The notes under the pieces are model-generated. The model was not told where the DNA came from, did not search any database, and worked only from the letters and a program-made list of their open reading frames with translations. The position numbers and the translations under genes were made by a program. DNA of 43,858 bases from Gemmatimonadaceae bacterium (lineage in GTDB: Bacteria > Gemmatimonadota > Gemmatimonadetes > Gemmatimonadales > Gemmatimonadaceae). The stretch's first letter is position 1. Each line of letters begins with the position of its first letter. The stretch spans positions 1 to 43,858 of the forward strand of contig JACCRF010000086.1 in NCBI GenBank assembly GCA_013813715.1, read 5' to 3'. Of the stretch, positions 7,037 through 41,973 are shown in pieces.

Positions 7037-7109
<73 letters not shown>

Positions 7110-26828: not shown

Positions 26829-26910
26829 CGGAGAGAAAAGCGTTGTCGCAGATGACACCGATGTTGCACGGATGACACATCGGTGTCATCTGTGTTAACG
26901 CTTTTCTCCG
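26829..26910. repeat. Palindromic element, copy 2, in the ffh/kinase divergent gap
   Basis: Left arm 26829-26863 and right arm 26878-26910 are near-perfect inverted repeats (CGGAGA...AAAGCGTT...CAGATGACACCGATG and its complement) around a 14-nt loop. The unit CAGATGACAC recurs in the element at 40936-41107. It lies between two divergent transcription units, so it is not an ordinary terminator. Confidence 0.85.
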
Positions 26911-40124: not shown

Positions 40125-40928
40125 ATGAAACGAATATTTGCGTCTTTGGCAATTGTCATTTCCACAACAGCGTGCGGAATCTCACAGCAGCAGGAAGTGG
40201 AGATGGGAACGGATTACGCGCGCCAGATAAATGCGCAGCTACCAATCGTCAGCGATCCGGAGCTGAACCGTTATGTCAACGTCCTGGGAGATGCCATCGC
40301 CCGGCTCACGAGCCGCGCCGATCTCGATTGGCGCTTCTTTATCGTTGACAGTCGCGAGGTGAATGCATTCGCCGTTCCCGGCGGATTCATTTACGTCAAC
40401 CGCGGACTGATCGAGCGAACCGACAACATGTCGGAGCTGGCCGGAGTGCTCGGCCATGAGGTGGGGCATGTCGTGCGCCGGCACAGCATCGAGCAGATGG
40501 AGAAGGCGCAGGGTGCGAACATTGGCGTCACGCTGGCGTGCGTGCTCACGAGCATCTGCAACAGCGATATCGCTCAGGCAGGGATCAACATCGCCGGCGG
40601 TGCGGTGTTCGCGCGATTCAGCCGCCAGGACGAGCTCGAGGCGGATCAGGAAGCCGTGAACAATACCGTCCGCGCCGGCATCACCCCGCGGGGCATCGTT
40701 ACGATGTTTCAGACGCTGATCGCCGAGCGGAGGAGCCGTCCGGGGGGCGTCGAGGCATGGTTCGCCACGCATCCGCTGGAAGAGGATCGAATCCAGGCGG
40801 CGCAGGCGATGATCAGCCGCATCCCGGCGGGGACTTTGAGCTCGCTCAACACCAATACGTCGAATTACAACAGCTTCAAGTCGCGGCTGCGCTCGCTTCC
40901 GCCGTCCCCGGCGCCGAGAAGGCAGTAA
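40125..40928 (+). CDS. M48 family zinc metallopeptidase, predicted lipoprotein
   Basis: 267 aa. The signal MKRIFASLAIVISTTAC gives lipidated Cys17. The mature protein starts EVEMGTDYARQINAQLP, a usual M48B opening. The peptidase core has NAFAVPGGFIYVNRGLIERT, HEVGHVVRRH (His111, Glu112, His115) and RQDELEADQEAV carrying the third zinc ligand Glu. It resembles LoiP/BepA-like outer-membrane-associated quality-control peptidases but lacks the long TPR tail of BepA. A large palindromic element starts 8 bp after its stop. Confidence 0.93.
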   Translation: MKRIFASLAIVISTTACGISQQQEVEMGTDYARQINAQLPIVSDPELNRYVNVLGDAIARLTSRADLDWRFFIVDSREVNAFAVPGGFIYVNRGLIERTDNMSELAGVLGHEVGHVVRRHSIEQMEKAQGANIGVTLACVLTSICNSDIAQAGINIAGGAVFARFSRQDELEADQEAVNNTVRAGITPRGIVTMFQTLIAERRSRPGGVEAWFATHPLEEDRIQAAQAMISRIPAGTLSSLNTNTSNYNSFKSRLRSLPPSPAPRRQ

Positions 40929-40935
40929 CCGGACG

Positions 40936-41107
40936 ACAAAGCTTTACCACAGATGACACAGATGGACGCCGATGACAAAGATGAAAAACGAGCGGTACTA
41001 CAACTGATTTAGGGGGAACGACGGACCGTCGTTGCGTTCCCCCCTAAAGCGTTTGCTGTCATCTGTGTCATTAGGGTACATCTGTGTCATCTGTGGTAAA
41101 GTTTTGT
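40936..41107. repeat. Nested palindromic element, copy 3 (172 bp)
   Basis: Outer arms 40936-40964 and 41079-41107 are inverted repeats identical at 28 of 29 positions (ACAAA.CTTTACCACAGATG). Inside lies a second palindrome, 41009-41047, with TTAGGGGGAACG and its complement around a core AACGACGGACCGTCGTT. Three direct ATCTGTGTCA-type units occur on the right side. The element fills most of the gap between the M48 gene and thiD, on the same strand, so it may end transcription of the former. Size and symmetry also fit a miniature mobile element or a BIME-like composite. Confidence 0.9.
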
Positions 41108-41157
41108 GGTGAAGGTCTGTCGTCTCGTTGTCGGCGAGCGCCGCGCATCTTTTGCTC

Positions 41158-41973
41158 ATGCAAGTCGCACTTACCATAGCTGGCTCGGATTCCGGCGGCG
41201 GAGCCGGTATTCAGGCCGACCTCAAGACGTTCCACCAGTTCGGGGTGTTCGGGACGTCGGCGATAACGGCGGTCACGGCACAGAACACGATAGGTGTAAC
41301 GCAGTGGCAGGCGATCCCCACCGATCTCGTGCGTGCGCAGATCGACGCGGTTGCTTCCGACCTCCGGCCCGCCGCCGTGAAAAGCGGTATGCTCGCGAAC
41401 CTCGCCATCGTCATGACGGTCGCCGCGGCGGTGCACGACCACGCACTCCCCAACTACGTCCTCGACCCGGTGATGGTCGCGACGTCGGGTGACCTGCTCA
41501 TCGAGCGGGAAGCCATGTCGGCGATCCGCGACCACCTCATACCGCTCGCCGCCCTTATTACGCCGAATGCGCACGAAACCGCTGTCATCACGGGAATCAC
41601 CCTGCGCGGTGAAGCGGACATGCGACGCGCTGCCGAAGTAATCCTGCGCTTGGGCGCGAAGGCGGTGCTCATCAAGGGAGGCCACCTCGACGATGGCGAG
41701 GCCCGCATCACCGACCTGTTCCACGACGGCGAGGTCACTGTTTTCTCGCATTCGCGCATCAGGACCACGAGCACGCACGGCACCGGATGTACGCTCTCAG
41801 CGGCGATCGCGGCCGCACTCGCAAAGGGTGCCGGGCCAGTAGACGCTGTCGCCTCCGCGATAGACTTTGTGCACGCAGCGATCGAGACGGCCCCCGCGCT
41901 GGGCGCCGGACACGGCCCGCTAAATCATTTCGCGCGGGACAGCTCAGCGACAAAAGCTCGCACCAGCGACTGA
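41158..41973 (+). CDS. thiD: Bifunctional HMP kinase / HMP-P kinase
   Basis: 271 aa from ATG 41158 (MQVALTIAGSDSGGGAGIQA). It is a ribokinase-fold enzyme with GVFGTSAITAVTAQNT, VLDPVMVATSGD, TPNAHETAVITG and STHGTGCTLSAAIAA, where the GTGC segment is the anion hole and catalytic region. It phosphorylates 4-amino-5-hydroxymethyl-2-methylpyrimidine twice in thiamine synthesis. No other thi genes or TPP riboswitch are visible nearby. Its last 49 bp overlap the 3' end of punA on the other strand. Confidence 0.96.
   Translation: MQVALTIAGSDSGGGAGIQADLKTFHQFGVFGTSAITAVTAQNTIGVTQWQAIPTDLVRAQIDAVASDLRPAAVKSGMLANLAIVMTVAAAVHDHALPNYVLDPVMVATSGDLLIEREAMSAIRDHLIPLAALITPNAHETAVITGITLRGEADMRRAAEVILRLGAKAVLIKGGHLDDGEARITDLFHDGEVTVFSHSRIRTTSTHGTGCTLSAAIAAALAKGAGPVDAVASAIDFVHAAIETAPALGAGHGPLNHFARDSSATKARTSD

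Follow-up and report, generated by a model that had tools for sequence, protein, structure and literature searches.

A dispersed palindrome in a Gemmatimonadaceae genome is most likely a gene-less partner of GxxExxY-bearing palindromic elements

A nested palindrome located between a peptidase M48 gene and a thiD-type gene in a Gemmatimonadaceae bacterium raises the question of what kind of element it is and how it came to occupy this site. The window analysed here is a stretch of 43,858 nucleotides, corresponding to contig C157 of a source genome (G000) that comprises 3.73 Mb in 183 contigs and is 96.6% complete. An earlier note, made from the letters of the window alone, had described outer arms of 29 bp with 28 matches that enclose a second palindrome and short direct repeats. 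These components are confirmed, and they form part of a larger arrangement of nested inverted repeats with the following features:

40933 to 41110, unstranded: whole palindromic element, a gene-less copy, with 52-nt inverted arms and a fold z-score of −11 to −12
40936 to 40964, plus strand: outer left arm, closing with two CACAGATG units (ACCACAGATGACACAGATG); 28 of 29 positions are complementary to 41079-41107
41079 to 41107, minus strand: outer right arm, partner of 40936-40964
40965 to 40984, plus strand: two further arm units (GACGCCGATGACAAAGATGA), offset by about 19 nt from the two in the outer arm; direct and inverted repeat
41001 to 41055, unstranded: core palindrome, CAACTGATTTAGGGGG...CCCCCTAAAGCGTTTG, with a small stem at its centre; inverted repeat, also seen in a half-element alignment of seven copies from the same genome
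26829 to 26910, unstranded: second, shorter copy of the family that lacks the G-rich core, with arms at 26833-26864 and 26877-26908; profile E values of 0.012 and 0.071
40125 to 40928, plus strand: left neighbour, peptidase M48 gene (PF01435, E 1.2e-33)
41158 to 41973, plus strand: right neighbour, phosphomethylpyrimidine kinase (thiD-type) gene (PF08543, E 1.9e-91), whose likely ATG start at 41158 was picked from a reading of the sequence

Structurally, the longer inverted repeat pairs 40933-40984 with 41059-41110 (45 of 52 positions matching), and the inner palindrome pairs 41001-41016 with 41040-41055 at 81% identity. Each arm is composed of CACAGATG-like units, with ACCACAGATGACACAGATG followed by GACGCCGATGACAAAGATGA at a spacing of about 19 nt, and the direct repeats CATCTGTGTCAT at 41060-41071 and 41079-41090 are likewise 19 nt apart. 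The left arm carries three phased matches to CNCNGA (at 40948, 40957, and 40967), which recur in inverted form in the right arm. A palindrome scan of the whole window (12-nt exact seeds with starts no more than 300 nt apart, minimum arm length 24 nt) returned only this element and the pair 26833-26864 / 26877-26908, and the same scan of 20 shuffled windows returned none.

The folding energy, a check proposed in the earlier note, places the palindrome beyond chance, since none of 200 shuffles folds as well as the element either as RNA (z −11.1) or as DNA (z −12.4). A scan of 40850-41200 for a G+C-rich stem with a short loop and a T run found no sites, and copies of the family also occur between divergent genes, so an intrinsic terminator was rejected. 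The remark that such layered symmetry is more than a terminator needs is borne out. An Rfam scan of the window detected only a tRNA gene (RF00005, minus strand, 7037-7109), and the element itself matched no known RNA family.

To assess dispersal, a sequence-only profile (R1) was built from 14 half-elements of seven copies in the same genome, the window copy being one of these sources. This profile matches at least 39 halves at no fewer than 25 places in the source genome at E<=0.1, and at least 22 places at E<=0.01. These are lower bounds, with places counted by hand, because the search scored 150 of 746 first-look candidates. A BLAST search of the element against the genome gave 24 matches at E<=0.001 and 43 at E<=10, some of which are due to chance. 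Among 19 genomes of the genus, R1 matches occur in eight, and in six of these at E<=0.01. The genome-wide count proposed earlier has thereby been made, and it refutes uniqueness of the sequence in this genome and its relatives. The suspected kinship with the palindrome at 26829-26910 is real, albeit weaker, as judged from the R1 E values listed above. The 16 copies that were inspected are intergenic according to a crude codon-usage gene call, and three of these extend over the end of a predicted gene by 2-31 nt. They lie between four convergent, nine codirectional, and three divergent gene pairs, which reveals no convergent bias. Two loci (L072 and L073) were left out of the count as single 17-nt matches inside genes that were taken as chance. 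Across the phylum, the arm word with at most one mismatch is present in only 6 of 298 drawn genomes, so this type of arm is patchy. At one locus in a congener (L199; G127:C1:64569), ACCACCGAGACC-like units arranged in inverted order form one more layer outside the arms, such that two arm codes are nested.

The site itself offers a comparison with relatives. The M48-thiD gene pair is present in 15 of 18 other genomes of the genus, and the remaining three have M48-like matches without thiD. In all 15, the spacer between protein alignment ends is 50-145 nt, a span that in some relatives includes the end of the M48 gene, compared to 203 nt here. None of the 15 orthologous spacers contains the element when read by eye. 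Because it is missing from every relative with the same gene pair, the element was evidently inserted at this site. The window palindrome is one copy of a dispersed, apparently mobile DNA element. In one relative (L214, G303), the spacer carries a different short tandem repeat of GCAGTTAGTTCGTAGTCC units in the same place.

Arms of this style might enclose genes for GxxExxY proteins, and the sequences flanking such genes were tested accordingly. Matches to the corresponding family, PF13366, are present in 38 of 121 phylum genomes; within the genus, 11 of the 19 genomes carry 31 such matches, many of which are partial. For each gene, the upstream 450 nt were aligned with the reverse complement of the downstream 450 nt. 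Scored against 812 mismatched pairs, whose 99th percentile is 37, the inverted flanks of 16 of 29 GxxExxY loci in the phylum set lie above that percentile. Among the 24 loci of the genus set, 19 score at least 35, whereas none of 16 M48 control loci exceeds 23. Only one of these 24 loci exceeds the null of its own set, because related copies share arms and thus inflate that null. From the mismatched-pair test, L243 was dropped for its short flank, and L229, L233, L244, L249, and L253 were excluded as contig ends or duplicates. When flanks were instead compared with a cross-family null (2349 pairs, 99.9th percentile 45), 12 of 25 GxxExxY loci were above it, as opposed to none of 29 PIN-domain genes, whose maximum score is 29. 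The other 13 GxxExxY loci do not exceed this null, which indicates either that the gene does not need the arms or that the arms decay. This test excluded L258, L263, L266, and L282, and dropped L291, L312, and L340, which are cut by contig ends.

Several of these loci can be tied directly to the window family. The R1 search covered 52 of 68 GxxExxY loci, with 52 control loci (30 PIN and 22 four-helix-bundle) giving no match at E<=1. The best match, E 2e-8 and restricted to the arms, is at L227 of the congener G127, where five R1 matches at E<=0.012 lie on both sides of the only GxxExxY match in that genome. Two further loci share the core of the window family in addition to the arm code. One is L238 in G304 (E 7e-5, model positions 20-83), and the other is the GxxExxY locus on contig C33 of the source genome itself (L226, the same place as L253; E 6e-4, positions 13-80), which in the genome-wide search matched weakly at E 0.018 and whose arms read CACAGAG rather than CACAGATG. 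Weaker matches were found at L276 (E 0.003) and L262 (E 0.008). The left inner core of the window element (ACTACAACTGATTTAGGGGGAACGACGG) aligns with the core of the GxxExxY element in the same genome (ACTGCAACGGATTTTAGGGGCAACGGCGG) better than any of 500 shuffles, in a series of 28 core comparisons of which only two attained a level of 1 in 500 or better. Furthermore, all six genus genomes with R1 at E<=0.01 have a GxxExxY match, compared to 5 of the 13 others (Fisher p 0.017, uncorrected for descent). The family link to GxxExxY elements is fairly well supported. Arms are shared with L227, and arms plus core with L238 and L253, GxxExxY being a candidate rather than a proven transposase. This link is a better one than those proposed in the earlier note, which had not foreseen it.

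The window copy can only be a gene-less relative of such elements, because the 74-nt spacer between its 52-nt arms is too short for the GxxExxY domain of about 115 residues. Gene loss inside elements of this kind is visible in another genus genome (G016), where copies of one 28-codon GxxExxY remnant are enclosed by CACGGAG arms at three loci (L250-L252). Further partial remnants are present at L245 and L246.

The arms also appear to be specific to the gene they enclose. Genes for a four-helix-bundle protein (23S_rRNA_IVP, PF05635) are found in 64 of 121 phylum genomes, with up to 14 per genome, and 15 of 28 such loci have inverted flanks above the 99.9th percentile of the cross-family null. 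At least two phased CNCNGA units on both flanks are present at 11 of 31 GxxExxY loci, but at none of 28 four-helix-bundle and none of 29 PIN loci. The four-helix-bundle arms, when read by eye, instead have units of a different make-up, frequently 7 nt long (such as GGAGTCA and AGGTATC) and in some cases 8-9 nt. The arm code thus differs between the two types of element. The four-helix-bundle loci include L283-L312 in the phylum as well as C88:1557-1874 and C122:11394-11702 in the source genome. These palindromes are probably intergenic counterparts of the intervening sequences (IVSs) of 23S rRNA.

According to the literature (PMC4990558), 23S IVSs likewise have long inverted arms that form a stable stem-loop, with a small ORF in the loop that encodes an S23p/four-helix-bundle protein described as having no known function, and a mobile or selfish origin has been proposed for them without proof. 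The window element differs from these in being intergenic and gene-less and in carrying the GxxExxY arm code, whereas the four-helix-bundle elements of this phylum use another. A 23S IVS was also considered for the window copy and rejected, given that it lies between M48 and thiD-type genes and not in a 23S rRNA helix.

To our knowledge, the GxxExxY family (TIGR04256) has no assigned function. All 18 aligned members belong to TIGR04256, and two that were tested match PF13366 of the PD-(D/E)XK nuclease superfamily. Residues G18, G20, E23, Y26, D63, K75, Q87, Y91, and N104 are invariant in the 18 sequences, and E73 is nearly so. The set D63/E73/K75/Q87/Y91 corresponds to the D-ExK-QxxxY pattern of Cas4/RecB-type nucleases. 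When the L161 member was modelled with AlphaFold (pLDDT 82, from an alignment of only four sequences), the best Foldseek match of the model was lambda exonuclease (E 6.3e-4), and its best structural match was SSO0001, a Cas4 (Z 8.7, Foldseek E 8.2e-4). Other exonucleases, restriction enzymes, and Holliday-junction resolvases score Z 5.5-7, and the tool itself notes that Z scores of this size are unspecific. No solved relatives were found by sequence at E<=1. One report notes a GxxExxY gene where another program had called cas4 (PMC8934634).

On balance we favour, with moderate confidence, the view that the window element is a gene-less, non-autonomous mobile relative of GxxExxY-bearing palindromes, one that would be recognized by the nuclease and moved in trans. 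Under this scheme, arms built of tandem 8-10-nt units of the C-N-C-N-G-A type (here CACAGATGA) would define the family, and its gene-bearing members would hold a GxxExxY gene for a PD-(D/E)XK nuclease (TIGR04256/PF13366) between them. As a hypothesis for the enzymatic mechanism, the arms on single-stranded or supercoiled DNA might form an extruded hairpin or cruciform that the GxxExxY nuclease could recognize and cut. The excised or copied hairpin would then be joined into another intergenic site without target duplication. For gene-less copies such as that in the window, the open GxxExxY frame on contig C33 may serve as the trans-acting source. In its design, such a pair would resemble REPIN and RAYT (PMC3116915), with a nuclease of another fold. 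The window palindrome is real, dispersed, and mobile-looking, and is most likely a gene-less partner of GxxExxY palindromic elements.

A different possibility, which we consider unlikely, is that the family is a MITE derived from an ordinary DDE-type transposon with terminal inverted repeats and target duplication, with GxxExxY as a mere passenger. The window element shares with classical MITEs the short length, the lack of a gene, the inverted ends, and the kinship to a longer gene-bearing element. However, it shows no target duplication, has no known DDE transposase, and is palindromic over nearly its whole length. None of 17 copies (in G000, G127, and G016) has a direct repeat of at least 7 nt within 40 nt outside its matched ends, and 29 other GxxExxY and four-helix-bundle palindromes lack one of at least 6 nt. 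The ends in both tests were set by alignments, such that a repeat hidden by wrong ends would escape. Family copies carry neither conserved ends nor a target duplication that would define a transposition unit, and the lack of duplications in the 17 copies speaks against a classical MITE. Of the proposal in the earlier note, the dispersed repeat family has stood (at least 25 places), and the MITE label, like the BIME-like one discussed below, has not.

What does resemble a transposon is a composite of 176-389 nt in G016 (for example at L246, L251, L252, L354, L360, and L401), which has GTAGTGGGTCAGTTT ends, CACGGAG arms and, in some cases, GxxExxY remnants. There are 25 GTAGTGGGTCAGTTT half-sites in that genome, and six of eight complete copies of the composite have 8-10-nt direct repeats at most 2 nt from their ends when read by eye. 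No GTAGTGGGTCAGTTT ends were seen on copies of the window family. The composite behaves like a separate type of transposon, and the target duplications found with it cannot be credited to the window family. At L370, one composite end abuts what reads from the sequence as an IS110-like C-terminus; this reading was not confirmed by Pfam.

Similarly unlikely is a structure that serves the host, such as a bidirectional terminator, an mRNA stabiliser, or a site for RNase III or for gyrase/IHF, that has spread by selection and not by transposition. The hairpin is very stable, and 8 of 53 arm pairs are altered on both sides, compared to 4.2 in shuffles, of which only 5 in 500 reach eight. However, the RNAalifold covariation term is unfavourable (+2.91), there is neither a terminator-like site nor a bias towards convergent genes, and the element is missing from 15 of 15 orthologous spacers.

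Less probable still is a hairpin repeat of the REPIN/BIME type whose movement depends on a RAYT (HuH tyrosine transposase) gene at another place. The window element is an intergenic inverted pair that forms a long hairpin and, like REPIN/RAYT systems (PMC3116915), combines a non-autonomous hairpin with a single-gene nuclease family near the repeats and with some compensatory arm changes. It differs from them in that its arms consist of tandem units of 8-10 nt and not of a single REP, and in that the linked gene encodes a PD-(D/E)XK rather than a HuH protein. A REP carries a GTAG or CGTC tag at the foot of its hairpin (PMC3733652). Read by eye, the copies here show no such tag at a shared place; their feet are AAGCTTTACC, AAGTGCGNTTTACC, or AAAGCGTTAACAC-like, and the GACG just left of the arm in the window copy is not common to them. 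The source genome has no PF01797 match, and the element is therefore hardly a REP/BIME, although at 96.6% completeness this absence is not absolute. In the genus, PF01797 is found in only 3 of 19 genomes, and is missing from four of the six with R1 at E<=0.01 (present in two of those six compared to one of the 13 others). A RAYT connection does surface in Verrucomicrobiia bacterium 5_bin.36, where each of two loci has a Y1_Tnp gene (PF01797, E 4e-10 and 2e-10) whose end is 45 nt away from a CACAGATGACACAGATG word:

L142, 1307 to 2353: Y1_Tnp (RAYT-type) gene beside the arm word (PF01797)
L164, 6865 to 7911: Y1_Tnp (RAYT-type) gene beside the arm word (PF01797)

Other enzymes may therefore use or abut similar arms.

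It is very improbable that replication template switching made a quasi-palindrome symmetrical and that words are shared through local homogenisation of arms, which would fit arm-specific changes common to both arms, such as CACAGATGCACAGATG at L063, and the copy-specific inverted flanks seen at some copies, such as AAGTGCGGATTTACC / GGTAAATCCGCACTT at L063, but cannot explain an arm word and core that recur at many places and in relatives. Template switching may nevertheless act on the arms after insertion. ERIC/IRU elements are also imperfect intergenic palindromes of about 127 nt for which a transposase is not known. They differ from the window element in sequence and hosts, and have no known linked gene.

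The preferred reading, a gene-less partner of GxxExxY palindromes, can also be viewed against other phyla and replicons. Across GTDB genomes, 70 stretches with 42 shortened source names contain the 19-nt arm word without mismatch, compared to about two stretches expected by chance (257 billion bases, even base use). Going by these names, the sources include Bacteroidota, Verrucomicrobiota, Planctomycetota, Chloroflexota, Omnitrophota, Alphaproteobacteria, Nitrospinota, Spirochaetota, and others. An inverted arm within about 400 nt scores above the 99th percentile of shuffles in 25 of 68 stretches (two of the 70 were dropped), whereas only two exceed the 95th percentile when the null consists of mismatched pairs taken from other genomes, in which the arms resemble each other. 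Proximity to GxxExxY is weak, with a match within 1 kb at only 3 of the 70 stretches, and most are thus gene-less as regards GxxExxY.

Of eight plasmid records with GxxExxY, three have arms of this style on either side of the gene, namely Gemmatirosa (score 127), Bacteroides finegoldii (45; TTCACCACAGAGGACGCAGAGGACACGGAG), and Bernardetia (36), whereas scores in the remaining five are 22-26. Relative to the cross-family threshold of 45, the Bacteroides score is only at it and that of Bernardetia is below. The Gemmatirosa kalamazoonensis match is located at 993807-994150 of plasmid NZ_CP007129.1. By eye, the Treponema and Fusobacteria plasmids show short inverted words, and that of Sphingomonas an upstream half-arm. 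In the latter case (L347, Sphingomonas parapaucimobilis plasmid NZ_CP155749.1), the GxxExxY gene is located between fabD and fabG, with only the upstream half-arm. Viral contigs yielded one confirmed GxxExxY relative, with an arm score of 48. Titles and opening lines of abstracts in the open-access literature revealed nothing on such palindromes, 23S intervening-sequence papers aside, and the arm words appeared there only in papers unrelated by title.

The recurrence of these arms and core around GxxExxY genes suggests that bacteria harbour a type of paired mobile element that has not been described to date. A wider reading, which we put forward tentatively and hold to be possible rather than probable, is that GxxExxY proteins are Cas4/Holliday-resolvase-like enzymes of an undescribed class of mobile elements. 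Such enzymes would recognize phased CNCNGA arms in the shape of a hairpin or cruciform, and would spread both their own gene and gene-less palindromes across many phyla. A parallel S23/IVP sister class with another arm code would then be the source of the intervening sequences in 23S rRNA, which have long lacked an explanation. Arms that are specific to their cargo offer a concrete candidate substrate for both the GxxExxY and the S23p/four-helix-bundle families, and open the proposed mobility of IVSs to direct tests. The same arms would also explain why CACAGATGACACAGATG-type palindromes are present in the genomes of many phyla.
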